DNA of 64,000 bases from contig NC_003070.9 of the NCBI RefSeq assembly GCF_000001735.4, forward strand, positions 12,828,001 through 12,892,000, written 5' to 3'. The position numbers and the translations under genes were made by a program. Source of the stretch: Arabidopsis thaliana. Lineage: Eukaryota > Streptophyta > Magnoliopsida > Brassicales > Brassicaceae. The notes under the pieces were generated by a model. That model was not told where the DNA came from, searched no databases, and saw nothing but the letters and a program-made list of their open reading frames with translations. This document shows, in pieces, positions 1-33,746 of the stretch; the stretch's first letter is position 1; each line of letters starts with the position of its first letter.

Positions 1-202
1 TTAGCAAGCAGCGGGGCCGGCAAGTAAACTTCTTGGATAGCAGCAACCTGTTGGAAAAAAAACGAAAGAGATTGTTAGTATTTTTATTAAAGTAGTAGTT
101 AAAACTGTAGAATACTAAGTACTTTGGGTTTGGACGAACAACCATTTTCACATCTGAGGCAGATGATGTTTCATTGTTGCTTATCTTCGTAAACTTCTGC
201 AT
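1..202 (-). CDS. Possible 5' part of a minus-strand gene running off the left edge
   Basis: An ATG at 202 (minus) opens a frame beginning MQKFTKISNNETSS that stays open to the window edge if unspliced. A good acceptor (pyrimidine run then CAACAG) borders 47, after which one frame reads VAAIQEVYLPAPLLA into the edge. I could not find a donor joining the two segments in that same frame, so the exon structure is unresolved. No family is recognised. It may be a real gene start or a chance frame. Confidence 0.2.
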   Translation of the reverse strand, partial: MQKFTKISNNETSSASDVKMVVRPNPKYLVFYSFNYYFNKNTNNLFRFFSNRLLLSKKFTCRPRCLL

Positions 203-872
203 AATTTCTCTGTTTTTTGGTTTTAACTGAAGAAATGGGTAATGGGAAAAACATTAATGAATGTTGGGTGTTTATATAGATTATTAAGGAAAGAGTAGTT
301 TAAGTTTTTCTGCGGTTATATTAAACAATTTATAATAGGTGGTAAATTGTCCCGGTATAAATCAGTTTCTCAATGTTGAGGAGGGAACTAAAATCAGATG
401 CGAAAAAAAGTAAGAGAATACATCGTTTATAATTAGGGTATAAAAGTCAGGAAAGTAATTTATTAACCTATCCATAAACAACAATCCACGATAGTAATTT
501 CTTATGGATTTCAACTAAAAGTTTCAACAATCCACCCTATCAGTCATGTAAACAAATATATGTTGAGAAATTAGATATGTTGGGAAACAATATTTTCAGA
601 TCACCAATTTTATTCCTTTTAAAACTCAAGCAATTTGCTAATTTCTGATAAAAAGATTGTAATCTTGATATAACCGTTCCTTAGTAAGGTGCACTTAATT
701 TATACACCGTATTCCTATTGTACTACTTAATAAAATATTTGTTACAATTATTACAAATGAGAAATTTTGAACAAAGAAATAACTTTTTTTATTAATATAT
801 CTTATCATTTATAAAAATATTACAACTTTGAAAAAAAATAAAAGAAGATGAGATAGTTCTAATCATCTTCTA

Positions 873-1881
873 TTAGTCGACAACCATTTTGATTTCTTCA
901 ACTTCCTCAACATCAGGTTCTGGATACATGGTTGATATAGGTGCATGGCTAACAATCTTAAACCAGTTACAACCTGGATAAAATCTAATAATTTTCCACC
1001 AAGCAAGAGCAATAACAACATTGTTCTTGCGAAATGCTCGAAATCTTTTCTCCAAGTCCACTGCAATTTCTCCATAAGCCTCACATACCAATGTATCCTT
1101 GCTGAAAATATGTAAAAATATGTGGTTATATACTTACTATAATAATGTATAAACATGATATGTTTGAAAAAAACTGTAAATTGAGGTTTTAAGAAATGTA
1201 CTTTTTATCCATGATCGTGAACGGCAATTTGAATCCGGCCATATCATTCTCGTTACTTGCGGTATTAGTCATGATCCCAACATTAACGAGTGCCCCGATA
1301 ACATCTATAAGAGATATGTTGGAGATATCTTTTAAAAAAAGTAATGTTTTGAAAAAAGTGAATGGAGTTTATAAAGAAGAATTTACTTACCAACCAAGGT
1401 ATCGTTGCCAACAACATCATCCACAATGTAGTCGAATGGAGTGAACTTGTTCAGTAAACCTGTTTCTCTTGGTGTGGAAGAAGTGACAATGGTGTGATCC
1501 ATGAATAGAATGCGAAACTGATGAGGAGTTGTTTTTATTGCTTCGCAGTTAGGTCGAACGAGAAACGTAGTTATTGTTTTCCATTGATTCTCTTTGATCC
1601 TGTCAAAGTAGAAGGCAGAGAAACGAGGACCGATTGTTGCTTCTATTTGGGTGCCCTGTGAAAACAACATTTTAGGGGTGAGGGATACACTGGAAAACGA
1701 AAAATTCTGCAAATTGCAAAACAAATTGAGGAAAATTGTTTACCCATTCATCGGCCAAAACAAGACGTAGTTCGAAAGCGTTCGGGTTGAGAATTTTTTT
1801 GTAAATCCTCAAAACCATGACACAAATCGTCCAACCAGTAACCATCGGAGACAACTCGTACAAATGGTGATGTTTAACCAT
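873..1881 (-). CDS. Replication protein A large-subunit-like OB-fold protein (DUF223 type)
   Basis: Four exons join with GT/AG borders into one frame of 252 codons: 1881-1744, 1655-1391, 1328-1202 and 1101-873. The start fits the family, with the N-terminal HHLYELSPMVTGWTICV stretch typical of plant RPA1-like proteins. Two OB folds are visible. The first covers about residues 1-125 (GTQIEATIGPR, then KTTPHQFRILFMDHTIV). The second starts near residue 135 (DISNISLIDVIGALVNVG) and continues into LVCEAYGEIAVDLEKRF. The protein ends in an acidic tail after residue 240. RPA large subunits bind single-stranded DNA; this one lacks the C-terminal zinc-binding OB fold of a full RPA1 and is less than half its length, as is usual for the many short Brassicaceae RPA-like copies. 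ssDNA binding is inferred. It is divergently placed from the F-box-like gene. Confidence 0.85.
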
Positions 1882-2551
1882 CGTGAAAAGGAGAAGTGAA
1901 GAGTAACGAAAAACAGAGAATTATAGAAACGAAAACAGAGGATATTGTTTTTCTTTTGCGATTGGGTTGTCTTGGTAGAGTCAAGAATAGGAGAGGTATT
2001 TATAGCAAGTGAAAGTGTTCCTCTGATTGAAGCCAAAACGGTGTAAGTTCGTCTGCGAGGAAAAGATGTAACTTTTAACATCCAAGGGGTGCTTACTTGA
2101 ACGATCCGTTGTCGTTATGCTCTATGACATATTTATTTGAGAATATTACGTATTGATTTGGTGGTGGTTGTAATATTAGATATATAATTCGTCTGCAGTG
2201 GTTTATAGTCGAGTTATTTATCTGTAATTGTTATGCTAAATATATGTTCTGTCCAGGAGAACAAGTCCAAAGAGAAATGTCCGTTTGAAAATTATTCACT
2301 ATATATTTGTATATGAAATTGGTTTAATGGAATTCAAGTGGTAGCTTTTATATTTAGAGTTAATATATAGTGAATATTAACTGAACCCGTAGTCCCCACT
2401 AAGCTTCATCCCTCACGATTGTGACCTATTAATAAAAACATCCAATTAATTACTCTGTTTTTATTACTCATTTCTAAACCATTTTGATAAGTACTAAAAC
2501 TTCTCTCTCCATCACATCTTACTCTTTCGTTATTCGCAACAAATTGACAAA
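1882..2551. promoter_or_regulatory. Shared divergent promoter region with a short inverted repeat
   Basis: This 670-bp AT-rich interval lies between the start codons of the RPA-like (minus) and F-box-like (plus) genes, so it must hold both 5' UTRs and promoters. It contains an imperfect 17-bp inverted repeat (2291-2307 against about 2362-2378, core TTCACTATATATT) with a ~54-bp loop, which may be a tiny MITE remnant. No regulatory site can be assigned with certainty. Confidence 0.4.
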
Positions 2552-3339
2552 ATGAGTACATCATCGAAATGTCTACACTCTATCACACAATCTAGCGACA
2601 CACAGGTTAAATTTTTCAATTTTTTAAACAATATAGTTTACATTCATTCCACAAAGTATATGTAACTTCTATAAACTTTCGTCTTCGTTGTCAACAGAGG
2701 AAGATTGCAAGATTATACATTCCGGAACCAATTCTCGCACTAATTGTTAGCCACGTTTCAGAAGAAGGAATTGAGGCTCTGAAAAACTGGATTAAATCTG
2801 GTCATGAAGGGAAATCTGCAGCTTTCTCTGTCGAGACACTATCCCGAGTTCGTTTAGATAAAAGCCCTGACTTCATCAACATGTCTTCACCCGACTCTGT
2901 TCACTTCTCATTCTACTCCAAATGTCTTGCAAAAAGAAACCCTTACGCTATGTATCTCCAGAGCTTGAGGCTAGGGTTCTGTTCTCTCCACATGAAAGGC
3001 GCCATTTCATTACTGAATGATTGTAAAGATGTCATTCCTATAGCCAAGCTTCTTTACATTGCGCTAAACCGCTGCGCAGGTAATGAAGTATTAGACGCGT
3101 TTAATACTTTCAAACGAGAGAACAAGTGTTTTACAGATGTAGATATCATGGCCAAGACACTAATTGACCACATTTCTGATTTGGAACCAAAACGATTCGG
3201 ATCTTACGCTGAGCTCTTTTATTATGAGGATTATCCAGACTGTTGGGTCATCCATGAATTTTACAACGAATATAATGGTGAGAGATGTTCACATTGCGTC
3301 TACTTCTTCCTCTTCAGAGACATCCTTTTGCTTTCCTAG
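2552..3339 (+). CDS. F-box-like protein of the At2g35280/At1g67623 type
   Basis: Two exons, 2552-2605 and 2698-3339, join in frame to 231 residues. Exon 1 encodes a short polar leader (MSTSSKCLHSITQSSDTQ). Exon 2 begins with the F-box-like helix pair (PEPILALIVSHVSEEGIEAL, about residues 27-46), followed by the family pattern of a 'V.L..SPDF' segment, SFYSKCLAKRNPYAMYLQSLR (about residues 87-107) and a helical repeat-like region ending near HISDLEP. This is a large Brassicaceae F-box-related family; members are presumed SCF substrate adaptors, but the F-box here is weak and Skp1 binding is inference. A longer reading from the internal ATG at 2881 is a truncated alternative. The intron (2606-2697) has clean GT/AG ends. 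Confidence 0.8.
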
Positions 3340-4182
3340 TTTATTTAAAAACATGAGTTACCCACTTTCAGAATATAACTATCTCTTCTGTTTCCCTCTT
3401 TTATCTAGTTTATTAATGTAATCTTATTATGAAGTTGTATTTCTCTCTTGTATTTAACGTTTAAACTAGTGAACATCTTTCTCGTTTATCATAACTTATA
3501 GGGACTCTTTCGATTTTGGAGCATGCATAGCAAAATTTTCCGACTATACTAATTTCAAAAATACTTAAGATTGGTTATATCTGATTGGTCTGGGGCTTTT
3601 GGATAGACATATAAATATTCATTTCCTATCTACATGTAAATATTCAGAGACATCCATTTCATTACCAAGTTGTAAAAAGTTTTTTAATATTAAAAACTAA
3701 GCTATATAATATGAAATCACATGTATTAGTCGATATTCTCTATTCTATATTATCCGATTCAGTAAATGTCCACATTTTTTATTCAGAATCAACAAACTTC
3801 TAACCTTACATGCACTTTGTAAATCTGACATGATCTGAAAAATAATTTGCTCACAATTACTAATTTTTCAACATATAACTGATTGGGGAATCTTACAATA
3901 TTGAATCATGTAAATCGAACTAATCTTACAAATAGATCTATTTGAATCAAACGTTTGGATATGATCTGATGGTCAACTATACTTGGATAGAAAACAGAAA
4001 TATTTGATTTTCATCAACTTCTACCTTTTCTCAGACATGCTTGCGTGACCCTGGTTGAACATAAGCAGTATAAATGGAAAACCTAATTAGCATCCAATAC
4101 TCAATAAATATTTATATGTTTTACACCTACGCATTACAAATCGTGAGTGTTTAGTAACTGTATATAATTATGCTCAACACTT
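3340..4182. other. AT-rich intergenic region, no gene seen
   Basis: This is 3' flank of the F-box-like gene. I see short frames only and no conserved motif. It leads into the tandem repeat at 4183. Confidence 0.5.
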
Positions 4183-5284
4183 GAGAGCTAACCATAATTA
4201 TCTTATCATAATAAACGTGATAATTAAAACTAAAAAAAAAAAGGATAATGCTCTAACTATAATTGTTCTCTAACCATAATGTCCCCGGATTTGTCTCGAA
4301 CCATAATAATCCCATTTTTAAACCTGATTGTGGGAATATTCACGATATACAACAGTATCTCAATATTTCCCGTAGAAGAAATTTTAGATTTGTCTTTCAT
4401 GGTGAAAGAGAAAGATAATTGTTAATGTATCCATATTAATCCATCCACAACATAACTGTACTAATTCTTTTGTCTGATTGAATAATTTACTATGACTGGT
4501 TTTAACGTATTTGTAAACATAATTAGCTCGAATGATTTACAAATCAACAATAGTTCAAAATAATCAAAATTATTTATTTCTCTTCGCATTGTTAACTGAT
4601 ATAAATGTTAGATGAACTTGAAAATAAATGGGGTTATGGATGGAACAAACAAATAATATGATACAAACCACTAAAACATTCAACAGCAATATAGAGATAA
4701 GATTATTTTGTAGGAATGGGGAATGGAAGAAACTTAAACACTGGAGAGCTAACCATAATTATCTTCTCATAATAAACGTGATAATTAAAAAAAAAAAAAA
4801 AAGAATAATGCTCTTACTATAATTGTGCTCTAACCATAATGTCCCCCAATTATGCTCGAACCATAAAAATCCCAGTTTAAAACCTGATGGTGGGAATATT
4901 CCCGCTATACAACAGTATCTCAATATTTCCGGTAGAAGGAATTTTAGATTTGTCTTTCATGGTAAAAGAGAAAGATAATTGATAATGTATCCATAAGAAT
5001 TCATCCACAATATAACTGTATTAATTCGTTTGTCTGATTGGATAATTCATTATCACTGGATGACATTTATATTAAGTTTAAACGTATTTGTAAACATAAT
5101 TAGCTAGAATGATTTACAAATAAACAATAGTTCAAAATACGCAAAATTATTTATTTTTCTTCGCATTGTTAACTGATATCAAATGTTAGATGCACTTGAA
5201 AAAAAGGTTGTTATGGATGGAACAAACAAATAATATGATACAAACCACTAAAACATTCAACAGCAATATAGAGATAAGATTATC
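4183..5284. repeat. Two-copy noncoding tandem repeat, unit about 560-577 bp
   Basis: GAGAGCTAACCATAATTATC begins copy 1 at 4183 and copy 2 at 4744. The unit ends with AACATTCAACAGCAATATAG before about 4706 and again before 5284. The offset grows from 561 to 577 bp through small indels. Both copies share the A-rich tract, the TAACCATAATGTCCCC segment and GGTAGAAG/CGTAGAAG-type variants. There is no coding potential. The short frames near 4628 and 5190 are parts of the repeat. Confidence 0.8.
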
Positions 5285-5397
5285 GATATGGTTAAGAAAA
5301 ACAAAAAACATATTTATATCATCCAGATTTATAAGCATTCAAAGAAGGCGGAATCAACGTTTATATTACAACAGATTTGTAGGGTGGCATTCGATAA

Positions 5398-8300
5398 CTA
5401 GTCAGAAACATTAGATGAATAGAGTGAGCAGACACATTGTTTATATATGTCCATGGCATATTGACGCCTAAATGCGTCGACGTGTTTGTCAGTAATTTCA
5501 GCCTTTTTATCTGGGAGTTTATCACTTGCCTGGATCTCGAGGAACTTCATGGCAACCGGGCCACAGTCACCACTCCACAAATTCTTGTAGATACCATCAA
5601 TTCGACTCCAGCCAAACGGTTGAAGACCGTGATTCTGAGAAAACTCTGGCGTACAGTACCTTTGGATGAGGTGGGGCAAAAGATTGACTACTGGCTCAAT
5701 GCATCTTTTTACCTTAGCGTCGTCGTAGAGGTCTGTATTTGGGTCAAGAATTTCAACGCTCCATATGCCAAGATTGATTGAAAGACCAACCCAGTGGCAA
5801 TCATTCCATATCATGGGTGCGTAAATTGTATCTATGTCCTTGAACCATTCAGTTTTGGATCCTTTGATGAAGCGCTGCATGTCCTCTGACCAACGAACAC
5901 GTGATTTCACCTTCGCAGCGTTGAAGGCTCTAAATTTAGCTTGTAGATGGCTTGTGAACCATGGATCAACAAAAGCAGAACGATGATTCTCAAGTGTAGT
6001 TCTGAGCCTCCGAGAAAGTAATGACACCAAAACCTCCATGTGCTAGGAAATAAAACATTTACACATTAGTATCTCTTGTTAACAGGTTAATTTGTACTAA
6101 GGTAAATATAGTGGACTACATACCAGGGTTGAAACCCATTGCTGAGGTTTGGCAAGTTCGACGAAGAATTTGTTGGAAATAAGGAATCCACACTTGGTTA
6201 GATGTTCACTATGAGGTAAAAAACCAGCATTAGTGATGAACTTGATGATGAATGTTGTGGAAATAAGAAAAATGAATGATAACCATACATATTTGGAGAG
6301 CTCGAGAGGGTTTTGACAAACTGTGAATACTCCGCTTTTTTTAGTGTTGGTAAAAGTGCTTGTGTCTCAAGTATTGGTTGAGATGTGAACTCGGCTACGA
6401 GACGTGCTTCAGCTTGGGAGAGATTTGGTTTTTCTCTGTTACGCGCCGGGGATGAATCAGATAACTCAAAATATTGATCTGGTTCCCGGGCAGTAGAGTT
6501 AGAGTGTTCTGAGTTATTATCCTGTACAGGAAGATATAATATCAGACCAATAGGGACAAGCTGTTACAAAACTGAAAAATCATTCCCTAGTCATTATTAA
6601 CAAAAGTCAGTATATGTTACGCAATACCTCGTTCCTTGTACCCACAATATTGGGACTATGTGTGGGAGATGATTGGGGCTCTTTGTCAGCTTTGGAACTT
6701 GTATCAAATACAGGCTTCACAAACACAACCATTGCCTGGCATAAGAAGATAATTTTAAAAACAATCCAAACAGAGCTGTCCATTAAAACATACCAGAAAA
6801 TTATGATACATGTTATACCTTCATAGGATCAGTGTTGTCTTTACAAACTCCTGAATGAATTGCTGCAGCCGTCTCCATGGTGACCTGATGGTGAGAAAAA
6901 CATAAGAATATATAACCTGCAAATTATTTCGAATACACAAACTCCAATCCAATATAAAAGTGAACATGCAAGCCTAATTTAGTTTAGACATAAGGATGAC
7001 CTTCTTTTTGGAGAACATTGCAAACCCAGTCAATGAATGAGCTGCTGGAGGCGTCTCCATGGTGTCCTGAAAGTTGAAGTACACAAAAAGATGGTGAAAA
7101 AAACATAAGATAATATTATCTGCAAATGTTAAGGTATACACAAAATCCTGTCGATTATAATAGTGAACATGGGAGCATTTTTCTATAAATGTTTGTTGCA
7201 TAATGCCTGAGAGATGCATCAAACCTCTACAATCTCCAATAAATCAATGAATGTAAATCATTAGTTGAAACTAGTTAGAAATGTATACCTCCATAGGATC
7301 ATTGCCAATCTTTTCTTCGGGTTGAGCCTCCGACACTGAATGCGATGATGCAGGCATCTCCAAAGTAACCTGAATGTTGATGTAGACATGTAGCTAGTTA
7401 GAATAAATAAAAGAAATTTTGCCTACATTTTATGAAGTAACAAGAAAATCATGTCCAATTACACAAGAACCACAACACATAAAACTTGATGATGATTGTT
7501 ACAGTATACCTTCATAGAATCACCGTCGCTGTTGACTTCTGGTTGAGTCTCTAGCAATGAATGAGATGCTGCATTGCCCTGTTGAGAATTGGCTTATAAA
7601 TGTTGTTTTGGAAAAGATCTGATAGAAGAAGCATCCCTCTCCAGTGTCAAATAAAGCAAGGAACTAGTTAAAAATGTATACCTCCATAGGATCATCGGGT
7701 TGAGGTAGTTCCACTGAGTGAGATGTTGCAGCTGACTCCAAAGTAACCTGAATGTTGAAGTACACTAGTAAGTATCCACAAAATCATGTCCACAATAACT
7801 ATGCACAAGAGTCATTATTTATATTAAGGACTAAATCCAATGTGTTAAATCAAATTATGTATTAGCTTACCTCCGTCATATGATCATTGTCAATGTTTTC
7901 TTCGGGTTGCGTCTCCAACAATGAATGAGAAGCTTCAACCGTCTCCAAGGTTTCCTGAATTATGAATTACAAACAGATATGTCTTAAGGGCTGTGACAAT
8001 AATTTGGTTTAATAAAGTTCTGACAATAATTTGGTTTATATATAAGCTTACCTCCATAATATTGTCTTGCTCGAGAGGAGATTGTTCTTTTTGGCTTAGG
8101 TTTGCACTTGAATCAAACTGATTGTAAAGTACAGTAGTCAATTTTGTGAGAATCTATAACCTGTAAAATAAATTGTAAATGTTTTATTTTTGTACCTGGA
8201 TTTTTCCCTCATCATCTGCTTCATGGTCATTAGGATCTTTTAGAATGCACAGAGATGCTGCATTGCCCTGTGGAGAATTACAGTCTGGAGAATTGGCCTG

Positions 8301-11099
8301 TAAATATTTTTTTGGACATGGACTGAGTGATGAAGCATCCCTCACCGGTGTCCAATAAATCAAGGAACTAGTTGAAAATGTATACCTCCATAGGGTCATC
8401 GGGATGCGGCTCCACCACTGATTGAGATGCTTCACCCGCCTCCAAATTGACCTGAATGTTGAAGTACACTCGTAAGTATCCACAAAATCCTGTCCATAAT
8501 AACTAAGCAGATGTGCAATTATTATGTTTACGGTCTGTGATGCACCAACCATTTCCGATGTGTTGCACCAAATGATGTATTAACTTACCTCCATAATATT
8601 GTGTTCCTCGAGAGGTGATTGTTTTTTGTTGCTTACGTTTGCACTTGAATCAAACTGATTGTAAAGTAGAATAGTCAAATGTGTCAGATCCTATAAACTG
8701 TTAAATAAAGTGTATGATGTGTTGTGTTTGTATTTATAAAAGTACATGGATTTTTCCCTCATCATCTGGTTCATTGTCATTTGGATCTTTGGCACCAGTG
8801 TCATAAATTGGATTGTCCTCTGTTGCATCATCCTTTTCAGAATCCTGTGATTCATGTGGAGTATGATTGACATCCATGGGGTCATCAGTAATCACCTGAA
8901 ATAAAATATTTTGACGTAAACAATTCTACCAAAGAGATATTGGAAATTAAATATTACACTAACCGTGTTTGTCAAAGTTGTTCTATCAATGGATTCATCT
9001 TGAAACTTCTTGAATTCATCATCTTGGACTATCGTAGAAGGGTGAGAAAGAGGAGGAGAAACATCCCATGAATCATCCTTTTGCTCAGATTGATGCTAGC
9101 AAGATTGATAAAAATTGATTAAGTACATATAGATGTGGTAACAGAATAAACAATAAACACATAAGGTTAAAACAGCAGACCTCAATATCAAAATCCTCAT
9201 TCTGTTCATCAGACAGCGTGTGTGAATGAGATGGATTCTATGAGGAAAATAAAAGTTTTGTTATGCGTTAAAACTTGAAAAATGTATAAGTAGATGATAA
9301 GGTTCTAATATTATAAACTGTTTGAAATCTTGATTACCTCAGAGGATTGAGATTGAGTAGGTACCTCCAATGACTTTTGGCGCTTTGATCTAGAAGATAA
9401 TGGAACAAAACCGAAAGCCAAATTTCTGGACCGCTTGAAGGTGACAGTTTTTCTTTTCTTTTCAAGCTTCATTACACGATTTGATAGCTCTTCCACCTTG
9501 TTTTGTAGATCAACGATCAACCTAGACTTCTCATCATCAGATAGCCTTACAACTTGATTAAAACGAGTTGAATAACTATGCTTGGATTTGGGAGGGTCAG
9601 ACTTCACCCGTAGTCTCTTCTTACGATCCACAATATGCTTTTTGTGAACAACAGAAGACTTCTCCTTTGGACTTTTAATTGATGGCAATGTAGCATCACC
9701 TCCTGGCCAATCACTTTTTTTGAATTGATGAGCTGTCAGTATCAAACCATTCATGTAAGAAACTTTCCTGTCTTTCACCTCGTCATCCCACTCTGCCCAA
9801 CTTTGGTCAACATTAATATCTTCACCTATAAGCGGATCCACAGGTCTCTGTTGAAAAATAGAATGTTATTATTAGTAAAGAAGACTGAATATATAGATAG
9901 AGAATATTATAGAGACCATATAAAAACTTTTGGGTTAGAAAAAAACCTTAAGGTTGCTTTCTAAAGAGTGAATCTGAGGAAGAGTAATTAGTTGTGTTGG
10001 ATGAGTTAAATTCTTCCAATGAAGGATTGTCAAGGAGGTGTCATCAAACTTCAGCAAATCCACCATTCCAGGTATGTTTCGAAAAGCTAAGAGCTGCAGG
10101 GCATGCGGAAAACCTTTAAGACGGAATGTGATCTGCTGGAGTTGCTTCACCAAATTCTGAATAGGATCGTTTGTGAGCTGTCTTTTACCGGTGCTCTTAG
10201 CGAGAATCCGTTTCTCGGGTGTCATCGCTTCAACCGTCTTCATAAACGACTCTCTACCCCAAGGAAACAAAAGGAATTTCTCTAAATCTGCCAACATCTC
10301 TACATATTTAAATGTAAGCCTACCGGTTTGGTTAGATGCTATGAGGACACCATCTACAATGAGTAGGAAAGTGAGCTTCAGTTTGTGGTCAGAAGACAGT
10401 TTACTGCGCTTCTTGGTTAGCATGGCAGATATATCCCCTAATGTAACCGTCTTGTCTGGACCAATTAACTCATTCCAGTAGCTCTTCTTGCCATCATCAT
10501 AAACAGGAGAATCTTCAGGGTCATACTCGTCAGGAAACTCCCCACAAGGTAAGCCAGTCACGGAAGCAAATTCTAGTAGTGAAAATCTCATTGGGTGTCC
10601 ACCAAAAACTGTCCAAAACTCATACTTTTTCTTAGTAAGCAACTGTCTACATAACAAGGCATGAATGACCTTACCCGAAGTCGCAACCCTACTAACTGGC
10701 AAATGGAATAAAGGACCAAAGCAAGACTGAAGTATAAAATCTAATTCCTCTGTCCCATCAAAAACCTTCTTGATAAAGGATAGAATATCCGGTCTAGAGT
10801 ATACGTTCAGCCTTCCCCTCGGATAATGATCGGTGGCGAAGAGTCTATTTGGAAGGTTTGAATCCCACTGAGAAGATGGTTCCTGAGATGTCGACCCTGT
10901 TCATTGGCAAGAAACCAGTTCAAGAGATAACGATTAGATTAACGAGTATTTGTATAAACGTCTGTGCTTAGCTACAAACAATTGGGAAACATTTTTCGAT
11001 TCAAAAAAAAATTGCAGAAACATTCAGCGAGAAGAGGATTTCTTCTTCTGAGTTAATTGGACCAAAATAAGATGATTGGAAACGATTTGTACCTTCCAT
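5398..11099 (-). CDS. DUF1985 / Ulp1-type C48 cysteine protease gene, 20 exons
   Basis: I threaded one continuous frame of 1,192 residues through 20 exons (minus): 11099-11093, 10896-9947, 9847-9338, 9237-9181, 9095-8964, 8895-8746, 8654-8589, 8451-8386, 8267-8196, 8117-8052, 7954-7871, 7747-7682, 7578-7510, 7369-7289, 7066-7001, 6884-6819, 6735-6628, 6521-6289, 6208-6124, 6042-5398. Exon 1 is only ATGGAAG. Exon 2 is the DUF1985 domain (GGHPMRFSLLEFASVTGLPC). Exon 3 carries a basic, coiled-coil-like segment (about residues 430-465) and RKKR-type basic runs that could be nuclear signals. Exons 4-17 are acidic and repetitive. Exons 18-20 form the Ulp1 C48 fold, with candidate catalytic His (NDCHW, ~1061), Asp (ILDPN, ~1078) and Cys (SGDCGP, ~1138) all kept. 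Such proteins are SUMO-protease-like and are often carried by Mutator-like elements in crucifers; no MURA transposase is seen here. Protease activity is inferred. Confidence 0.85.
6819..8895 (-). repeat. Amplified phase-0 mini-exon block inside the Ulp1-like gene
   Basis: Eleven successive exons (8895-8746 down to 6884-6819) include ten of only 66-84 bp, each beginning and ending at a codon boundary. Seven of them are exactly 66 bp (22 codons). Most encode variants of one motif: V-T-L/M-E, two to four variable residues, A-S-H-S, a variable stretch, Q-P-(D/E), then D-P-M-E or M-K before the donor. Two others are near-copies of FDSSAN..S.K.QSPLE...IME (8654-8589 and 8117-8052), and two share DPND.E.DDEGKI (ends of 8895-8746 and 8267-8196). 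Introns are 78-222 bp, and several are recognisably copied with the exons. Confidence 0.8.
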
Positions 11100-11930
11100 T
11101 GAGTATTCCGATCAGCGAGAATCAACTGAAATGCTAATGAATCTGGCTTACGAGAACAATAAATCGAAATCGAATTCGATTATTGCAGAGATTTGGGGGA
11201 AATTACTATTTGGTTTTTATTCAGCGAGTATAGACTCGCCTGAGTGGCGGATTGATGGACAGCGACGGAGGAGTCGCCGGATTCGGAGCAGTCGACGGAT
11301 TGGGAGCAGTGGCGATGTGGAGATACAGTAAATTAGGGTTTTTACTGGGTAAGCGGTTTTTTACGATCGTGTTGGTAAATGAAGATTTAACCCAGACAGT
11401 AACTGATAATACGTGGTTCAACCGGAACCGGACTAGAGAAAACCGGCTAAATTTGTTATGTTTTATTAAACCAACGATTTCAGGGTAAAGGGGTAATTAT
11501 ACTGAGTTAAAGTGACTAATGGTTTTAAAGTGTTCTATTGTGTCCAAAGTTTTGAAATAGTGCATCTACGTGTAATATTCTCTATTTTAATTTGGGTCTA
11601 GCGTTACATTGCATAAAGTTACAAACAATAATTTTGCATTACCAAATAACTTATTTTACATTTTCAAAAAATCTAATCTTATTATCTAAAGAAATCATAA
11701 TCATTATTACAAATATTACACAGCAATTCTGCAAATATCCAAATTATTTACCAAAACCAAACAAAACTTTCTAATCATTCACCAAAACCAAATTTGAAAT
11801 TTTTACATATATTTATATTCATATAATTAATAACTTATCAAATAGGAAACAAATTTATGTACCAATTACTTAAAACACAGAATATAATTTCCATTTAATT
11901 TTCTAATATTATGGTATCTATTCTATTATC
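11100..11930. other. 5' flank of the Ulp1-like gene; no gene recognised
   Basis: The first 130 bp are probably 5' UTR and promoter of the minus-strand gene. A GC-richer patch at about 11220-11340 (GACGGAGGAGTCGCCGG and neighbours) gives overlapping short frames on both strands, none with a recognised domain; it could be a leader exon of a lost gene. The rest is AT-rich. Confidence 0.4.
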
Positions 11931-12225: not shown

Positions 12226-13062
12226 TCTTTTTTTTTTTTCTTTTTTTTTTTAATTTTAATCTTTCCAGATGGGCCTAATTAAAAACACGGTTACAAAAAG
12301 CAAAGCCCAACAATAGAGGCACTAGAAAAGAGATCTGCATCTTGATAGTGACCGGAAACAGAAACCCTAATCTACTAACACCGGCGCTAACAAAAACTCC
12401 TCTTTTGCAGCTAAGAAACCTACTTCCAGTTAGACCCAGAAGTTTTCTCTCGGAATAGATCAAGACACTGACAACAAGCTAGACCCAGAAGTTTTCTCTC
12501 GGAATAGATCAAGACACTGACAACCGGAACATCATCTCTCCACTCCCGACCTAAAAGAGGAGAGAACACCGAAGCGAACCCTCACCGCCAGCAACCACCA
12601 TCCACGAACCTCGACAGTGACCAATCCTCTTCGATCCGGTAAGACGAAAGCAAGAACTCGAAAGCTAGAAAAGGATTTGAGGCTCAGACAGATCCTTATT
12701 AACCGGAAAACGAGAAAAGCCCTCTAGGATCCAAAGGATCATTTGGATCCACAAATAATCGCCTTGACTTGCAGAGCAAACCCACCGATCTGCTCCTCAA
12801 CTTCCGCCGCGAGTCGCAACAACCACCACGAGCAGACGAGCCGAGAGAATAACCACCGCGATAACTCCTAGCGTCCATAACCAGGAGAAGAATCGACCGG
12901 GAACAACCTCACACCACCGTGGTTTCGCCACCACCGCATCGAGAACCAGACCACCACTCCCAACTCTACCGGAGAAGAAGACGACACACTCCCGCATCTT
13001 CAATTAAACACCATTAGCCCCTATGAAGATCTACAATAAAAGAGAAAAGGAAAAAAAGCTAG
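12226..13062 (-). mobile_element. Poly-A-tailed noncoding retroposon (LINE fragment or Sadhu-like)
   Basis: Read on the minus strand, the segment ends in GGAAAGATTAAAATT followed by two A-runs (plus-strand T-runs at 12229-12252), the signature of a non-LTR 3' end. The body is about 0.8 kb, GC-richer than its surroundings, and has no intact protein. It contains a perfect 49-bp tandem duplication (12431-12479 and from 12480). Size, poly-A and lack of coding resemble the Sadhu retroposons described in Arabidopsis, but a 5'-truncated LINE is equally possible from sequence alone. Confidence 0.4.
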
Positions 13063-13183: not shown

Positions 13184-14088
13184 TTTATTGATTCGAGGGC
13201 CAGTGGAAAGCGCAAAGAGAAGCTTAAGAATAAGAAATCCGCTGCGAGAAGAAGAGAAGAAAAATCTGGAAAAATTTCATGTTTTGTGTTTGCTTGGGCA
13301 CAGAACGAGAGATATGAATCAAAAAGTAAAAACAGAGATCTTTGCAACTTTAGCAAGTGATTCTCGTGTTTGATGGAAACGATGGAATCTGGGGTTTATC
13401 ATGATGAAGAAAGGTGTGGCTGGTGATGAAAGATGTTCCGAACAAACCGACGCAATCCGACGTGACATCCGAAGGGATGCAATTGAAAAATCAAAGGAGG
13501 AAGCGTTAGCGAAGGAAAGAAGGGGACTGTCAAGCACATGAAGATCATGTCTTTTCCCAGACTCAGAACACGTATGAAGGCGTGTGCGATGCTCGACCAA
13601 AAGAGGGGCTTCTGGTTTTGAAAACCAGAAAACCAATAAAGTGGTGTGATGTGTAAGAACCACAGTCACACAGAGTAAGCTTCTGTTGGAAGAACAATGC
13701 AAGGCTACTCAACAAAAGGTTCAAGGGAACCGATGATAGGTCGTCAACGAGACGTGGAGAAAAGTTTGTTTCAAAAGGAAGAAACAAACGTGGCGACAAA
13801 AGTCAAAATACGGCTGACAAATGGTGTGACTTTTGTACGTGTGACGATCACAATGAGAGTGATTATTTGAGAAAGCAACACAGGGATGTTAGCTTGCCTA
13901 CGGGTGTGAAGCTGCTTACCTAAGAGAGAGGGAGCAGAGTTCAGTTCGGTTGCAAAGATAGCCGACGAAAACGTGAAGAGATTTTCACGCACAAGACGTC
14001 AAAAAGACGTGGTGGTGATCAAAGGAAGACACCAAGCAAAAAGGAGAGATGCTTACCTAAGAGTGAAAGGAAGCATTGGCTGGTTATA

Positions 14089-17000
14089 GTGATAACCAAA
14101 GAAGACGTGGAGGAGGTCACGCACAAGGTAACATGTTGTTTAGTGCAGTTGAAGAATGATTTGGATTCACTAACAATGTCAGAACTTCTTGGTATCTTAA
14201 AAGCACAAGAAGCGAGAGTAACTGCAAGAGAAGAAAGCACAAAAGAGGGAGCATTCTATGTTCGTTCCAAAAGAAGAGAATCCGGTTTCAAACAAGACAA
14301 CACCAACAGCCGTGTCAATCAAGACAAAAAATGGTGTGGTTTTTACAAGAGTAGCAAACACACAGAAGAGGAGTGTCGAGAGAAACCGAAAAATGACGAT
14401 CATGGCAAAAATAAGAGAAGTAACATCAAGTGTTACAAGTGTGGGAAGATCGGCCATTACGCAAATGAGTGTCGCTCGAAGAACAAAGAGAGAGCTCATG
14501 TAAGTCTTGAAGAAGAAGACGTAAATGAAGATCATATGTTGTTTAGTGCAAGTGAAGAAGAACCAACAACGTTAAGAGAAGATGTTTGGTTGGTAGATAG
14601 TGGCTGCACAAACCATATGACGAAAGAAGAGAGATACTTTTCAAACATCAACAGAAGTATCAAAGTCCCGATTAGAGGCGGAAATGGAGATATAGTCATG
14701 ACAGCCGGTAAAGGAGATATTACCGTCATGACAAGGCATGGCAAAAGAATCATCAAGAATGTTTTCTTAGTGCCTGGTTTGGAGAAGAACCTATTGAGCG
14801 TTCCTCAAATCATCTCAAGCGGCTACCGAGTACTTTTTTTCAAGACAAGAGATGCATCATCTAAGATGCAAATGGCAAGGAGATCAAAGTGATGAAGGAG
14901 GCATGTAAAGCGTGTAATCTTGGGAATCAATCACGCAAGAGCTTTCCAAAAGAATCTCAAACGAAGACAAGAGAAAAGCTTGAGATTGTGCATACGATGT
15001 GTGCGGACCGATGCAACACCAATCGATCGATGGAAGTCGTTACTATGTGCTGTTTTTGGATGATTATACTCACATGTGTTGGGTATACTTCCTAAAACAA
15101 AAGTCGGAGACGTTCGGAACGTTCAAGAAATTCAAAGCATTAGTGGAGAAACAATCAAACTGTTCCATCAAGACGTTGAGATCCGATGGAGGTGGTAAAT
15201 TCACTTCACGAGAATTCAATCAATTCTGTGAAGAAGAATGAATCAATAGGCAAGTGACTTTGCCTTACTCACCACAACAAAATGGTGCAGCAGAACGCAA
15301 GAATAGATCATTAGTGGAGATGGCAAGATCAATGCTTGTTGAGCAAGACTTACCCCTCAAGTTATGGGCAGAAGCGGTATATACCTCAGCGTATTTGCAA
15401 AATCGCTTACCATCAAAAGCAATAGAAGATGATGTGACGCCTATGGAGAAGTGGTGTGGACACAAACCAAACGTGTCACACTTGAGGATGTTTGAAAGCA
15501 TATGCTACATGCATATACCGGATCAGAAAAGAAGAAAGCTAAAAGCTAAAGCAAAGTGTGGTATTCTCATCGGCTATAGCAATCAAACCAAAGGCTATAG
15601 AGTGTTCTTACTAGAAGATGAGAAGGTGGAAGTATCAAGAGATGTCGTTTTTCAAAAAGACAAGAAGTGGGATTGGGATAAACAAGAAGAAGTTAAGAAA
15701 ACTTTTGTCATGTCCATCAACGACATACAAGAGTCAAGAGATCAACAAGAGACATCCAGCCATGTTTTGTCTCAAATCGATGATCATGCTAACAATGGAG
15801 AAGGAGAAACCTCAAGTCATGTGTTATCCCAAGTCAATGATCAAGAAGAACGAGAAACTTCAGAGTCACCAAAGAGATACAAGTCCATGAAAGAGATCTT
15901 GGAAAAGGCACCAAGAATGGAGAATGAAGAGGCGGCTCAATTCATAGAAGCTTGTCTCGTTGCGAATGAAGAACCACAAACTTATGATGAAGCTCGTGGT
16001 GATAAAGAATGGGAAGAAGCCATGAATGAGGAGACAAGGATGATCGAGAAAAACAGAACATGGAAACTAGTAGACAAACCGGAGAAGAAAAATGTGATAA
16101 GCGTGAAGTGGATCTATAAGATCAAGACGGATGCAAGCGGAAATCACGTCAAGCACAAGGCAAGACTAGTTGCGAGAGGTTTTTCTCAAGAATATGGAAT
16201 CGATTATCTTGAGACATTCGCCCCTGTCTCGAGATATGATACAATACGAGCTTTACTTGCGTATGCGGCTCAAATGGAGTGGAGATTGTATCAAATGGAT
16301 GTGAAGTCGGTGTTTCTAAACGGAGAGCTTGAAGAAGAAGTTTATGTCACACAACCACCTGGGTTTGTGATAGAAGGCAAAGAAGAGAAGGTGTTAAGGC
16401 TTTACAAAGCTTTATATGGTCTTAAGCCAGCTCCACGTGCATGGTATGAAAGAATTGATTTTTACTTCATTCAAAATGGTTTTGCAAGAAGCATGAATGA
16501 TGCAGCCTTGTACATCAAGAAGAAAGGAGAAGACGTGTTGATCGTTAGCTTGTACGTCGATGATCTTATCATCATTGGAAGCAACACTCATCTCATCATC
16601 AACATTCAAGAAGAACATGAAGGACGAGTTCGAGATGACAGATCTTGGTTTGCTAAACTGCTTCCTTGGAATGGAAGTAAATCAAGATGACAGTGGCATT
16701 TTTCTTTCACAAGAAAAATATGCAAACAAACTTATTGATAAGTTTGGGATGAAAGAGAGCAAGAGTGTAAGCACCCCACTTACACCACAAGGGAAAAGAA
16801 AAGGAGTAGAAGGTGACGACAAAAAATTTGCAGATCCAACAAAGTACCGGAGCATTGTCGGAGGATTGCTCTATCTATGTGCATCAAGACCTGATGTGAT
16901 GTACGCAAGTTCTTACCTATGAAGGTACATGTCATCACCAAGTATACAACACTATCAAGAAGCCAAACGAGTGTTGAGATACGTCAAGGGAACGTCAAGC

Positions 17001-18109: not shown

Positions 18110-18420
18110 CCCGTGATTTCCTCCCCAAAAAAAGGTAAACCTGTGATTTTCCCGTCTAAAGCGTAAATCCGTATTTTTCCAGCCAAAAACTTAAATCCTT
18201 ATTTTCCCGCCAAAAAAATATATCCGTATTTTCCCGCCAAAAAAATAACCATATAATTTTCCTGCCAAAAATGTAAACCCGTAATTTTCCCGCCAAAAAC
18301 GTTAACCGTGAGGTTCCCACAAAAAAAACGTAAACCCGTGAGTTTCTTGCAAAAAACCGTAAAGCCGCAATTTCCTGTCCAAAAACGTAAACTCGTAAAA
18401 AATTGTGAATCCGTAAATAT
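18110..18420. repeat. Degenerate ~28-bp tandem array carrying E2F-like sites
   Basis: The unit reads roughly CCGTATTTTCCCGCCAAAAA plus a variable (A/G)TAAA spacer and recurs about ten times with mutations. Three copies keep TTTTCCCGCCAAA (about 18202-18214, 18229-18241, 18285-18297). TTTCCCGCC is the plant E2F consensus (TTTSSCGS). The minus-strand frame 18156-18425 is an artefact of this array. Amplification of E2F sites by crucifer transposons has been reported, and this array fits that theme. Confidence 0.7.
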
Positions 18421-28191: not shown

Positions 28192-31100
28192 TCAGATAGA
28201 GGATAGAACTCTCTCATTAGCAAAGAGATCGTTGAGCCACGAGGGGTGACTAGAGGCGATATAGGAGCGAATTCTATATCCCTTAGAAACACTTTGCGCG
28301 ATGAGACGAGCTCCTCTATTCGCTTGGTAACCTACCTTATCAAACTTCCAAGACTGAAACCTTTCCAACAACCCCAAAAGTTCCAGCGCTTCCCCTTTGA
28401 AGGATGGCCAAGCTTTTGGCCTTAGAACACATCCCACCAAAGAAGCATCCTCAGTTTCTAGAATTACCTTTGTGATACCGAGACTTAGCAGACTTTCCAA
28501 AGACCAGAAGGCAGCTTGGAAGGATGCTGAATCTTTGTCTCTAATGTTGGGGATAGCGTTGCGGCTGTGTAGTAACACTACTCCCCTTTCATCTCTTAAG
28601 ACCCATGAACACCCCAACAAAGAGTTCCCAGCTGACCAAGCACATCCCACATTGCATTTGAGCCAAGAACTAGGTGGGGGTTTCCACACATTCGGACAAG
28701 TGGCACTAGGCGTGACAGTTCTCCCTAACTCCACCACGGGGGAACTCGTGTTCTCTCCAACAGAACCATGAATTGTCTCTGAAACTTGAGCCGCAAACCA
28801 TTCCTGCACATCATCATCAATCTTGCTAATAGTATCACTTGCCAAGAACTGATTCCCTTCAAAAAACAAGGAGTTCCTATTTTTCCAGATTCTCCAAATG
28901 ATCCATGGGAACTTTTTCTTTAAAAGAGATGGCCAATTCCTGTTATCTCTATTAATAAGAAGATGATTAATGTTGGAGAAAACAGAACCTTTGTCAAAAC
29001 CAAACTCTGGCGATGGATAATCAGACAAAGCCCAAATCTGTCTCGCAATAGGGCAGGAAAACAGAACATGATTAATAGTTTCATCACTTCCGCCACACCC
29101 TTGACAAACATTATCCAACCTCATCCCTCTCCTGTTCAAACGATCAGCTACCGGTAAGGCACCACTCAGAGCTTTCCAGAGAAAGACCTTGATCTTAGGG
29201 TCAGTTTGAAGTTTCCAGGCCTGATCCTTCAGCGTGTTGATAGAAGGAAAATTTGAAGCATCTCTCCTAACCTTCGAGTTTTGAATTTGGCAAGCCAACC
29301 AGTAGGCAGATTTCACAGAGAAGTCCCCACTTTTGTTATGTCTCCAAACTAGAAAATCTTCTTGAGAGACAAGAGGCTTTTTCTTCCTTATCTTTAAGAT
29401 ATCTCCCGGGAAAAAATGCTCTTCAAGCTTATGGATATCACAGTCTCTATTTCTAAAGTCAATCAGGTCTTTGACTCTTAGCTCAATGTTGATTATAGGG
29501 TTCATTATCCAAGGCATTCTGACAGCCCCATCTTCAATCCAAGGATCCATCCACACTCTAATTGAATTGCCATTGCCCACTCTTTTTAGAAGACCTTTTT
29601 TCAGGAGCTCTCTACCATGAAGGATACTTCGCCAAGTGAAGGACGACCTGCTTCCCAGACCTGCCTCCAAGAAATCGCAGAGAGGGAAATACCTGGCCTT
29701 CATAATAGAAGAAAAAAGACTATCCGGAAATTGAATCAATCTCCAAGCCTGTTTAGCAAGAAGCGCCTCGTTAAAAAGCTGGATGTCTTTGAAACCAAGA
29801 CCTCCTAACTCCTTCGACAAACACATCTTCTCCCAACTAACCCAATTAATCTTTTTCCCACCTTCAGTTGAGCTCCACCAAAAAGACGACATGGCACTAG
29901 AGAGGTTTTCACAAGTTGTCTTAGGCAGCTTAAAGCAGGACATAGCGAAGACTGGCATAGCTAAGGCGACAACTTTAAGAAGAACTTCTTTACCCCCCTG
30001 AGACAAGTTCTTTGTGAACCAACCAGAAAGCTTTGATTTGAGCCTATCTTTTAAGTAGTTTAAAAGGTCAATCTTTGAACCAGAGAAACATTCTGGAAGT
30101 CCCAAGTAAGTACCAGCCCCGCCTTCTTTAAAAATCCCCAACTTATCCTGAATCAACTTCTTTGTAACCTCATCCACTTTCACACCAAAGGAGATAGACG
30201 ATTTGGATGGGTTAACAACCTGACCAGTAGCTGCACCGTAAGCAGCTAAAGTCTCTAACAGGACCTGAGATTCCTCTGCATTTGCTTTGCATATGAATAG
30301 ACTGTCGTCAGCAAATAAGAGGTGATGGATCATCGGCCCTTCATTGTGAAACTGAATACCTGTCAATCTTCCAAGATGTTGCGCTTGATTTAGCAAATGA
30401 GTCAGACCTTCAGTACACATCACGAAAAGAAAGGGAGAGAGAGGATCTCCCTGTCTCAGACCTTTTTCAGGGACAATCATACCAAAAGCTTGATCATTAA
30501 TGAGGACCGAATAGGTTACGGAAGAGACGCAAACCATGATCCAGTCAACCCACTTCAAATTGAACCCTAGCGCAATCAGTAATGCTCTTAAGTAGCTCCA
30601 CTCAACTCTGTCAAATGCCTTAGACATATCTGATTTAACAGCCATGTAATCAGAGGAGAAGGAGGCATTGGTGTTGAGAGAGTGAACCATTTCGTGCGCC
30701 ACCATGATGTTGTCAGTTATCAGCCTTTCAGAAACAAAAGCTGATTGCTGATCAGAGATGATTAGAGGCAGAAGAGGTTGTAAGCGCCTCACCAAAATTT
30801 TGGATATCACCTTGTAGATTACAGAACATAAGCTTATTGGTCTCAAATCTGTCATGAGAGATGGATGATGAATTTTGGGCAGCAGACAAAGATGTGTGTA
30901 ATTCCATTCTTTTGGAAAGGAGCCGGAGACGAAGAATTCTTTCACTTCAGTAATCACCTTAGGACCGATAGTATCCCAATAATGCTGAAAGAAAAGACCC
31001 GACATGCCATCAGGACCAGGCGCACTTGAAGGTCTGATAAAGAACACCGCATCTTTGATCTCTTGGTCAGAGACAGGACTTATTAAACTCTCATTCATTT

Positions 31101-32365
31101 CCCTAGAGACTTTTCGCAACATTTCAGAAAACCAATCAGTGAAACTTGGAGGATTTGATGATTTGAAGAGTTTCTGAAAGTAAGAAGTGGCAACTTCCCC
31201 TTTTGCTGCCTCAGATTTTTGCTCATTCCCATTGATATCCAACAACATCTCTATTCTCTTTTTTGACCTATTGTCTTTGACTGAGGCATGAAAGAACTTC
31301 GTGTTTCTGTTCCCACTCTTCATCTAAAAAGCCCTGCTTTTCTGATGCCAATACAGCTCTTCTTCTTTGTAAGCTGAAACCAAATCTTGTTTGATTTCCC
31401 AAACCACCTGAAGACGGGGAAAGGAAGAAGACTGTTCCACTTCTAACGCATGTTCAATCTGGAAAATCTTGTCTTTGGAATTGAGGTTGTTAACCTTTTT
31501 CCATTGACTAAGAGATTTCCTACAAACCCTCAAACTGTCAGAAACACTTGAAACCCTCGTCACTGGACCATTAGACCAAGCCAAGGAGATAGCTTCTAGA
31601 ACATTAGGCTTATTGAGCAACCGTTTGTCAAACCTGAACTGACCCCTGTAAGTGTCTTGAGATTCAATGAGCTTTATCATCACCGGTCTATGATCGGATC
31701 CCCTCCAATCCATAAAGGTCTGATTTGAAGCTGGGAATTGTGAGAACCAATCTTTGTTTCCGAAGGCTCTATCAAGCCTACTTTGAACCCAAATATCATA
31801 TCTTCTGCCAGCCCAAGTGAACTTGTTCCCATGGGAAGCCATCTCAACCATATCACAAGCCTGTAACATCTCAGCAAAAGGCAAGAACACATTATCACTT
31901 CTCAAAGGCCCTCCAAGCTTTTCTCCATTATGCAATATGTCATTGAAATCTCCAACCATACACCAACTCTCTTTTCTGCCAATGCCGATTCTACTCAGCC
32001 TTTCCAAATTATCTTTTTTTAATTTAAAAACTGGATCCCCATATATACAAGAGCCAAAAAAAGAAACAGCACCAAACTGAACATGCATATCCATTAAGTT
32101 TTTATCAAAATACTTAAGATCCACCGTTACACCGCTTTTAATAAACAGGGCAAGACCACCACTCTTCCCCAACGGCTCTACTGTAAAAACCCGCTCATAG
32201 CCTAACCAAACTTGCATATCAACTAATACATTCCTACTATTCATAGACTCCATCAAGAACAACATCTCTGGGAAATGTTTTTGACGCATTTCTTTGAGAC
32301 GAGGAATCACCAAATCTTGAGACCGTACCAGTCCTTGGCAATTCCAGCTGATGATGCTAATTGGG
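28192..32365 (-). pseudogene. LINE ORF2: endonuclease, reverse transcriptase, zf-RVT, RNase H-like
   Basis: ORF2 begins with the APE-type endonuclease (ISIISWNCQGLV, about 32365-32330), overlapping the end of ORF1 by about 50 nt. Endonuclease motifs: MVGDFNDILHNGEKLGG and WRGSDHRPVMIKL. A single TAG at 31324-31326 interrupts the frame where relatives have Trp. RT follows: SSAPGPDGMSGLF, LRPISLCSVIYKVISKILV, FADDSLFICKA (catalytic Asp pair), then zf-RVT (CQGCGGSDETINHVLFSC) and a C-terminal RNase H-like domain. In that last domain KCNVGCAW has Gly where the first catalytic Asp (KxNxD) usually sits, so RNase H activity is doubtful. Apart from the one stop the ~1,370-residue frame is intact. Confidence 0.88.
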
Positions 32366-33746
32366 CGTTGGGCAATCCCCCCTTTGGGATCACCTCTGAT
32401 GAATTAAGCTTTTTTGTTTTAGCAGAGCTTGTTCCTTCATTTACTGCTTTCCTTTTTTCTTTTTTTCCGACTTCCAGACCAACTTTTAACCCTATATCTA
32501 CCCCATCTGGCAAGGGAGTTAGGAGCTTGAATTTCCTTGTGTTCTTCGAGGGTCTCTTCCTTGTTTTGTTCTTTTTAGTGTTAAACCCGGACGGACCAGC
32601 TTCAGAGAAACCAGTCCTAAAAGCCGATGGCTGACACTGAAAAGGTTGAGATAAACCAAGGAAGTTTACCAACTCAGAACTACCCACATGAACACTCGAC
32701 TCCACCAACCAAGATCTGTCAGTATCAACTTGAGCTGCTGAACGGGAGTTGAGAGAAAGACCGGCTGATAATCCTTCATTAACCGCTGAGCTCTCACTTT
32801 CATAGCTGAAAACATTTCCTTTGTCCTTGTTGACTTCTCGGTGAATAATAGGAGGAGACTCAAGTCTGAGGATTGAGCTTTGAGCAACTGGATCTTTTTC
32901 AACTTCTCCCACAGATTTCTTCACACGATCCACTTTGAGGCTTAAGTCTTCTCCATTTGCAACCATTAGGTATTGGCGCATTCCTTCTAAGACTTCTGGG
33001 ACTATCCTTGGTCTTCCAGTCAAAGAGTCAAGACCCACTTGATCTTCCCTTAACACCCCAAAAAGAGGAACAGACACTTTCAAAACCAAAGCCTTCTTCG
33101 GTTTTTCCACCAGTTTGCCCAATCTTCTAGCTCGAGCATCATCTTGTCTTTTTTTCACTAGAACAGGGCAGACATCCTTTTCATGAGTAAGCCTCTGACA
33201 TTCATAACATCTTTTTTGGATCTTCTCATATTGGAAACGGACTACAGTAGCTTGAAGTTGTGACCTTTCAGGGTCGAAGGCTACTTCCGTAACCTGACCT
33301 ATGAGGTTACCAAGGGATTTGATAGCTGGGACAGTGAAGTTGTTAATGGCCAAATTCCAAATTTGAACCTAGATAGGAATGAATTGTAGATAGTTTTCAG
33401 GGGGATTCTCATACCATCTGTCAATCGCAATAGACCACTCATCAAAGATTTGGGCACCTTTTCCCAGCACGTCTTTGAGATCGTGAGCATTCTCGAAAAT
33501 GAACTGAAACTTCTCTCTAGTCAGAGCAATACCCTTCACTCTTCCTTCCTTCTGCCATTTCCTTGGCATATCTCGAATCAGACGCTTCATCTCTTGACAA
33601 TCGGGATTGAGTAATCTCCCAACCAAACTCAGAGCATTTCTTTCACAAGAGGAGAATTCCGGTAGATCCGGCATATCAAACGGCTGATCTTCTTCTTCTT
33701 CTTGTAAAGACATAGCTAACATAGCTTTATCCATAGCCGAAGACAT
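32307..33746 (-). pseudogene. LINE ORF1: DUF4283 nucleic-acid-binding protein with CCHC knuckle
   Basis: It starts MSSAMDKAMLAMSLQEEEED at 33746. DUF4283 is seen in residues ~35-150 (LVGRLLNPDCQEMKRLIRDM, then GAQIFDEWSIAIDRWYENPP) and a zf-CCHC_4 knuckle follows (RCYECQRLTHEKDVCP). The C-terminal half is basic and low in complexity. One TAG at 33369-33371 follows LQFIPI, where relatives have Trp; the frame continues without shift to 32307. ORF1 proteins coat LINE RNA. Confidence 0.85.

Follow-up and report, generated by a model that had tools for sequence, protein, structure and literature searches.

A tandem array of phase-0 mini-exons in a transposon-borne Arabidopsis gene with DUF1985 and C48 protease domains

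Introduction

How does a gene come to contain ten very short exons in succession, each beginning and ending on a codon boundary, and what might such an arrangement mean for the protein? The question is raised by a gene on the minus strand of a 64,000-nucleotide stretch of the Arabidopsis thaliana genome, C1:12828001-12892000, which we call the window; the genome as analyzed is seven contigs, 119.66 Mb in all. An original prediction had placed an array of mini-exons at 6819..8895 of the window, in a Ulp1-type protease gene, and had read it as an expandable acidic linker from which any subset of exons might be skipped. Our analysis confirms the observation of the mini-exons with small corrections, and partly supports the interpretation as a whole. 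With moderate confidence we take the array to be a repeat-built, variable middle region in a KIU/VANC-type gene on a Mutator-like transposon of the VANDAL/Kaonashi kind.

Results

An array of ten symmetric mini-exons

The gene runs from position 11099 to 5398 of the window, and its 20 exons, read from splice sites and frame, give 1192 codons with no internal stop. Exons 7-16 are the ten mini-exons, of 66, 66, 72 (or 102), 66, 84, 66, 69, 81, 66 and 66 bp. All ten have AG/GT borders and are of phase 0-0, as had been predicted, and the position of the array holds as well, since on this strand exon 6 starts at 8895 and exon 16 ends at 6819. Six mini-exons are exactly 66 bp, where seven had been counted. 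A size range of 66-84 bp fits all ten, with the reservation that exon 9 may alternatively be 102 bp through an in-frame acceptor 30 bp earlier, which is the exon preferred by the exon predictor. The introns from exon 6 to exon 17 are 78-222 bp long, without modulo 3 regularity in their lengths.

The units fall into two peptide families, assigned from splice sites, frame and pair comparison. Seven of the ten carry, variably worn, the motif V-T-L-E...A-S-H-S...Q-P...D-P-M-E, and form the V family: exons 8 (8386..8451, 66 bp), 11 (7871..7954, 84 bp), 12 (7682..7747, 66 bp), 13 (7510..7578, 69 bp, with a G-type start), 14 (7289..7369, 81 bp), 15 (7001..7066, 66 bp, diverged) and 16 (6819..6884, 66 bp). 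The consensus of this family is vTlEt.aASHSv.e.Qpe.ni.DpMe, taken over 21 exons of the window gene (W) and its copies C5b and C2b, using only phase-0 exons of 60-90 bp and dropping gap columns. The statement that most units encode one motif is thus correct, but exons 7 (8589..8654, 66 bp) and 10 (8052..8117, 66 bp), which are 89% identical, belong to a second, F family, and exon 9 (8196..8267, 72 bp; 8297-8196 when the acceptor before 8297 is used, 102 bp) is a chimera. It has a G-type head like that of exon 13 and a tail like that of exon 6.

Resemblance extends to the introns. Against dinucleotide shuffles, 19 of the 45 exon pairs and 11 of the 55 intron pairs exceed z=4. Thus exons and introns have been multiplied together as units. 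The linker is also acidic, as had been described: the 383 residues of exons 4-17 include 87 D/E (22.7%) and 23 K/R (6%).

The domains on either side of the linker are readily identified. Exon 2 (9947..10896, 950 nt) encodes DUF1985 (Pfam PF09331, E=9.6e-38, residues 84-224), while exon 20 (5398..6042) holds the stop codon and most of the Ulp1/C48 protease domain (PF02902, Peptidase_C48, E=3.5e-60, residues 973-1185), with the profile matched end to end, from 1 to 217 of 217. A Pfam scan of the 1192-codon protein found no family beyond these two at E up to 0.1, and when the protease exon was compared with the sequences of solved structures, nothing matched at E up to 0.1. Sequence and frame place the start codon in a first coding exon of 7 nt (11099-11093), followed by intron 1 (10897..11092). 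Splice sites and frame define the phase-0 exons 3 (9338..9847, 510 nt), 4 (9181..9237, 57 nt), 5 (8964..9095, 132 nt), 6 (8746..8895, 150 nt) and 17 (6628..6735, 108 nt); in pair comparison the last 45 nt of exon 6 are 91% identical to part of exon 9. The gene model is completed by exons 18 (6289..6521, 233 nt) and 19 (6124..6208, 85 nt).

The gene is carried by a Mutator-like element

The mini-exon gene is cargo of a complete Mutator-like element (MULE) of 21,310 bp, a status that the original prediction overlooked. The element extends from C1:12818273 (left) to window 11582 (right), so that its right-hand part occupies window 1..11582 and its first 9.7 kb precede the window. It is flanked by a 9-bp target duplication, TATTTTAAT, and the C5a copy by another, TAATAGATA; both ends were read in these two elements only. 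Of the terminal bases 16 of 24, and 24 of 40, match when inverted, where 2000 random pairs of 24 gave a mean of 6.4 inverted matches and a largest value of 16. Absent or short degenerate terminal inverted repeats (TIRs) are a feature of VANDAL/Kaonashi-type elements, according to the available text of PMC6446971. Inside the element there is a MULE transposase (PF10551, 2e-24) with a SWIM finger (2.9e-8), its frame split in the window copy by one in-frame stop, and a DUF223 fragment. With its 9-bp duplication, degenerate inverted ends and MULE transposase, the element fits the VANDAL/Kaonashi type.

DUF1985 and C48 are both above the Pfam cut-off in a single transposon-borne gene model. The earlier identification as a Ulp1-type gene with DUF1985 was therefore right, and on its domain content we assign the gene to the KIU type, that is, a putative Ulp1-carrying VANC gene.

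Other parts of the element can be noted. Similar-looking open reading frames of 215-242 residues, recognized by eye, lie at window 2611-3336 (+), L029:6956-7600 (-) and L029:8128-8844 (-), and a fourth, shorter one of the same kind spans the left edge of the window. The first two of these are an inverted pair about 78% alike, as judged through other copies. One such frame is weakly like TPR_27, under the Pfam cut-off, and the frames are possibly extra cargo genes. The element also has two non-coding regions of long repeats, at window -5078 to -3255 (L029:4922-6745) and at 4136-5283, the former holding AACTAGTT and TCCATATGGA at five sites each.

Variation in unit number among copies

How variable is the array? 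A DNA search with the gene found near-full copies C4a, C5a and C5b at 96-98%, the more divergent C2a and C2b at 78-89% by piece, further partial copies, and six relatives at 80-83% around DUF1985 (B_C1, B_C1b, B_C2, B_C3, B_C3b and B_C4). A protein search with DUF1985 gave at least 126 matches, many of them with stops. Exons in the copies were taken from the predictor, which had been trained on the window gene, so that its agreement there is circular while its use on the copies is comparative. W, C4a and C5a each have 10 mini-exons, and C5b has 11. The relatives have a dimer of 66- and 114-bp exons followed by further units; the dimer occurs once in B_C1 and B_C3, twice in B_C2, B_C3b and B_C4, and three times in B_C1b. 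One 114-bp unit of B_C4 was called as 42 bp; in B_C3 the predictor gave 102 bp for the 114-bp unit, and a later unit occurs twice; B_C1 has an additional 100-bp piece with a stop. C1b and the partial copies C5c and C1c are excluded from these counts, and C2a was predicted from exon 6 onward.

Phase 0 is found throughout in seven of 11 predicted copies (W, C4a, C5a, C5b, B_C1b, B_C3b and B_C4). Other phases are called for one or two pieces each in C2b, B_C1, B_C2 and B_C3, beside short doubtful pieces, and for one piece in C2a. The doubtful pieces, of 34-54 bp, occur in the arrays of C2a, C2b and the six relatives, and the predictor splits exon 3 in C2b and B_C4. For exon 9 it prefers 102 bp in W, C4a, C5a and C5b, and 72 bp in C1b. 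With unit number differing between copies and phase mostly 0, the array is indeed expandable, on the time scale of evolution. Intronless or processed copies, which would reveal splicing, were sought among 92 matches to the linker protein; the longest is 51 residues and none spans two whole exons.

Growth by tandem duplication

The array contains a duplicated block larger than the single unit. Two segments resemble one another piece by piece, with identities of 75.8 to 91.1%. One starts in the tail of exon 6 and reaches the head of exon 9, and the other starts in the tail of exon 9 and reaches the head of exon 13; relative to the second block the first is without exon 11 and one intron. The junction of the blocks lies inside exon 9, in frame. 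Since only one F-type exon is present in each of C2a and C2b (called as 70 bp in C2a), the F-V block of W most likely doubled after the split from the C2a/C2b lineage.

The 0-0 phase of the mini-exons is the expected result of tandem duplication of a phase-0 exon, and this bears on the suggestion that one gene could generate many linker lengths through skipping of symmetric mini-exons. Any subset of the ten could be omitted in frame, and exon 9 offers two in-frame acceptors. Yet symmetry is what tolerated tandem exon duplication would leave in any case, and a splice-site model rates the array at least as well as the neighbouring exons, a circular comparison because the model was trained on the same gene. 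We consider such a generator of isoforms very improbable. Exon units that add up are familiar in repeat proteins, as in elastin and the PEVK exons of titin. The head-to-tail, phase-compatible duplicates of PMC9013439 are of a similar kind; in the available text of that paper they are linked to mutually exclusive splicing, whereas the units of the window gene more likely make up successive repeats of one protein.

Coding behavior of the mini-exons

Within the array we counted distinct indels no longer than 40 bp, leaving out B_C1 and B_C3. Comparing W with C4a, C5a, C5b and C2b there are none in exons and nine in introns, and comparing B_C1b with B_C2, B_C3b and B_C4 there is one in exons and 16 in introns. 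Combined, this is one indel in 1536 bp of exon and 25 in 2657 bp of intron (p=1.5e-4). Because small indels avoid the mini-exons in this way, we conclude that they behave as coding exons. A wider count, starting at exon 3 and taking in all five other relatives, gave for the close set two indels in exons and 10 in introns (p=0.018), and for the relatives nine and 43 (p=9e-7).

Against the six relatives dN/dS is 0.20-0.23 for DUF1985 and 0.17-0.21 for C48. In mini-exons of equal length it is 0.32-0.45 in all six pairs among B_C1b, B_C2, B_C3b and B_C4, while the recent copies give 1.2, 0.6 and 1.13 on only 11, 13 and 21 changes. Between W and B_C1b the pooled exon 6, F and D exons have a dN of 0.30 and a dN/dS of 1.13. 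Judged by these comparisons, the linker appears to be coding, weakly constrained and fast-evolving.

Neighboring sequence

Perfect 49-bp repeats, about two copies in tandem, lie at window 12431-12524. About ten tandem units of 28 bp occupy window 18129-18398, with a core like TTTTCCCGCC, of which three exact occurrences are present in the window (0.04 expected); the core resembles an E2F site. Similar sequence lies close to two other copies of the element, C5a and C2b. To the right of the element, window 13924-16690 contains frames of a broken retrotransposon of the copia type, with pieces like a zinc knuckle, an integrase and a reverse transcriptase, and window 28192-33368 (-) contains LINE-type frames (endonuclease and reverse transcriptase-like), one of 1043 residues, all recognized by eye.

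Discussion

The original prediction held that no such arrangement had been described for this family, and here it fails. Hosaka et al. 2017 (PMC5735166), in the text available, report that the VANC (DUF1985) genes of VANDAL elements have tandem peptide motifs and that their exon/intron structure changes in association with repeats. The likeness to the window gene is close: a DUF1985 protein of a Mutator-like element, with a variable region of tandem peptide motifs whose exon/intron layout changes with the repeats. The differences are that the window gene adds a C48 protease domain, and that its element is without the target motifs of VANC21 and VANC6. Ulp1-carrying VANC genes are called KIUs (Kaonashi ULP-like) in a 2026 review (PMC13317346), according to which VANDALs that carry a KIU bring about hypomethylation in their relatives; PMC6117577 considers action of KIUs on SUMO unlikely. 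As in those accounts, the window gene is a multicopy Ulp1-domain gene of a non-TIR MULE of Arabidopsis, but the available parts of PMC6117577 and PMC13317346 make no mention of a mini-exon array. Among the matches listed from the open-licence literature we found no description of this particular array. Thus this kind of arrangement is already in print for VANC genes, as far as the available text of PMC5735166 goes, and the locus is a well-resolved example of it.

Part of the history of the variable middle region is shown by these comparisons. Tandem duplication copied phase-0 units of exon plus intron and also a larger block of units; the count of units shifted between copies of the element, while phase 0 was kept in nearly all predicted units and the flanking domains were conserved. 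Phase-0 introns would make changes of repeat number harmless to the frame. If all units are normally spliced in, the mini-exons would contribute about 234 residues to an acidic linker that is probably disordered, judging from its composition only, and whose repeat number and sequence appear to change quickly. The repeats may then tune the partner or target specificity of an anti-silencing protein, after the speculation of Hosaka et al., who in the available text leave open which region of VANC sets specificity (PMC5735166).

Several points weigh against this reading. The splice model is drawn from GT/AG sites, frame and comparison between copies, stops are present in several copies, and an anti-silencing role for this protein is suggested by likeness to VANC proteins only. 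Only three of the 11 exon indels of the wider count are multiples of three, as expected from decayed copies rather than tuned repeats. Mini-exon and intron identities are 98.4 and 98.9%, 98.1 and 98.9%, 97.2 and 97.8%, and 88.0 and 87.4%; the mini-exons are thus the more identical in one comparison only, by 0.6 points, and the introns in the other three. Since their identity hardly exceeds or trails that of the introns, selection on the peptide would be weak or diffuse. The dN/dS of 1.13 between W and B_C1b itself depends on a low dS of 0.27, compared with 0.56 for DUF1985 of the same pair. Lastly, the known VANC21 and VANC6 target motifs have no site on either strand of the element, and a search for new motifs in the element gave none that is significant.

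Could the array be a neutral by-product? Units flanked by phase-0 introns would expand and contract by unequal recombination, leaving a tolerant disordered spacer with no sequence-specific job. The near-neutral ratios between clades, seen in one pair, and among recent copies fit this, as do the similar conservation of exons and introns and the scarcity of exon indels in multiples of three in the wider count. So does the number of SUMO-interaction-like motifs in the linker (1, 1 and 0, against means of 0.98, 0.96 and 0.22 in 1000 shuffles), which shows no enrichment. The purifying ratios in the mini-exons of four relatives, the strong avoidance of indels in array exons and the recurrence of motif residues from unit to unit argue the other way. 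We regard a purely neutral origin as possible but somewhat doubtful.

Alternatively the introns might be what matters: their multiplication would supply tandem arrays of binding motifs to the VANC protein that the element itself encodes, and the exons would be carried along. The motif arrays bound by VANC21 lie in non-coding DNA, some of it intronic, as reported in the available text of PMC5735166, and the introns of the window array are conserved as much as its exons. The top-ranked 8-mer, AACTAGTT, occurs eight times in the non-coding DNA of the element, three of these in array introns, and was not found in the 52 kb of the window beyond the element. It was dropped as a candidate target motif, however: the left repeat region shares a single 8-mer with the introns of the array, where 0.84 is expected by chance, and the copies of AACTAGTT within each repeat region derive from duplication. 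Together with the absence of the known motifs, this makes a role at the level of DNA unlikely.

The variable middle region of a KIU/VANC-type gene remains our preferred explanation of the array. A bolder version would make it a specificity module evolving by copy number, in which phase-0 units are gained and lost during re-targeting, exon skipping adds variants of the linker, and the family explores many anti-silencing specificities; we give this little credence.

The locus shows clearly how a coding repeat can expand with its frame intact when the units are phase-neutral and have introns between them. Transposon anti-silencing proteins switch targets quickly, and here one reference genome holds a natural series, three genes of 10 units, one of 11, and relatives that have between one and three dimers, in which the relation of repeat number to target choice could be tested.

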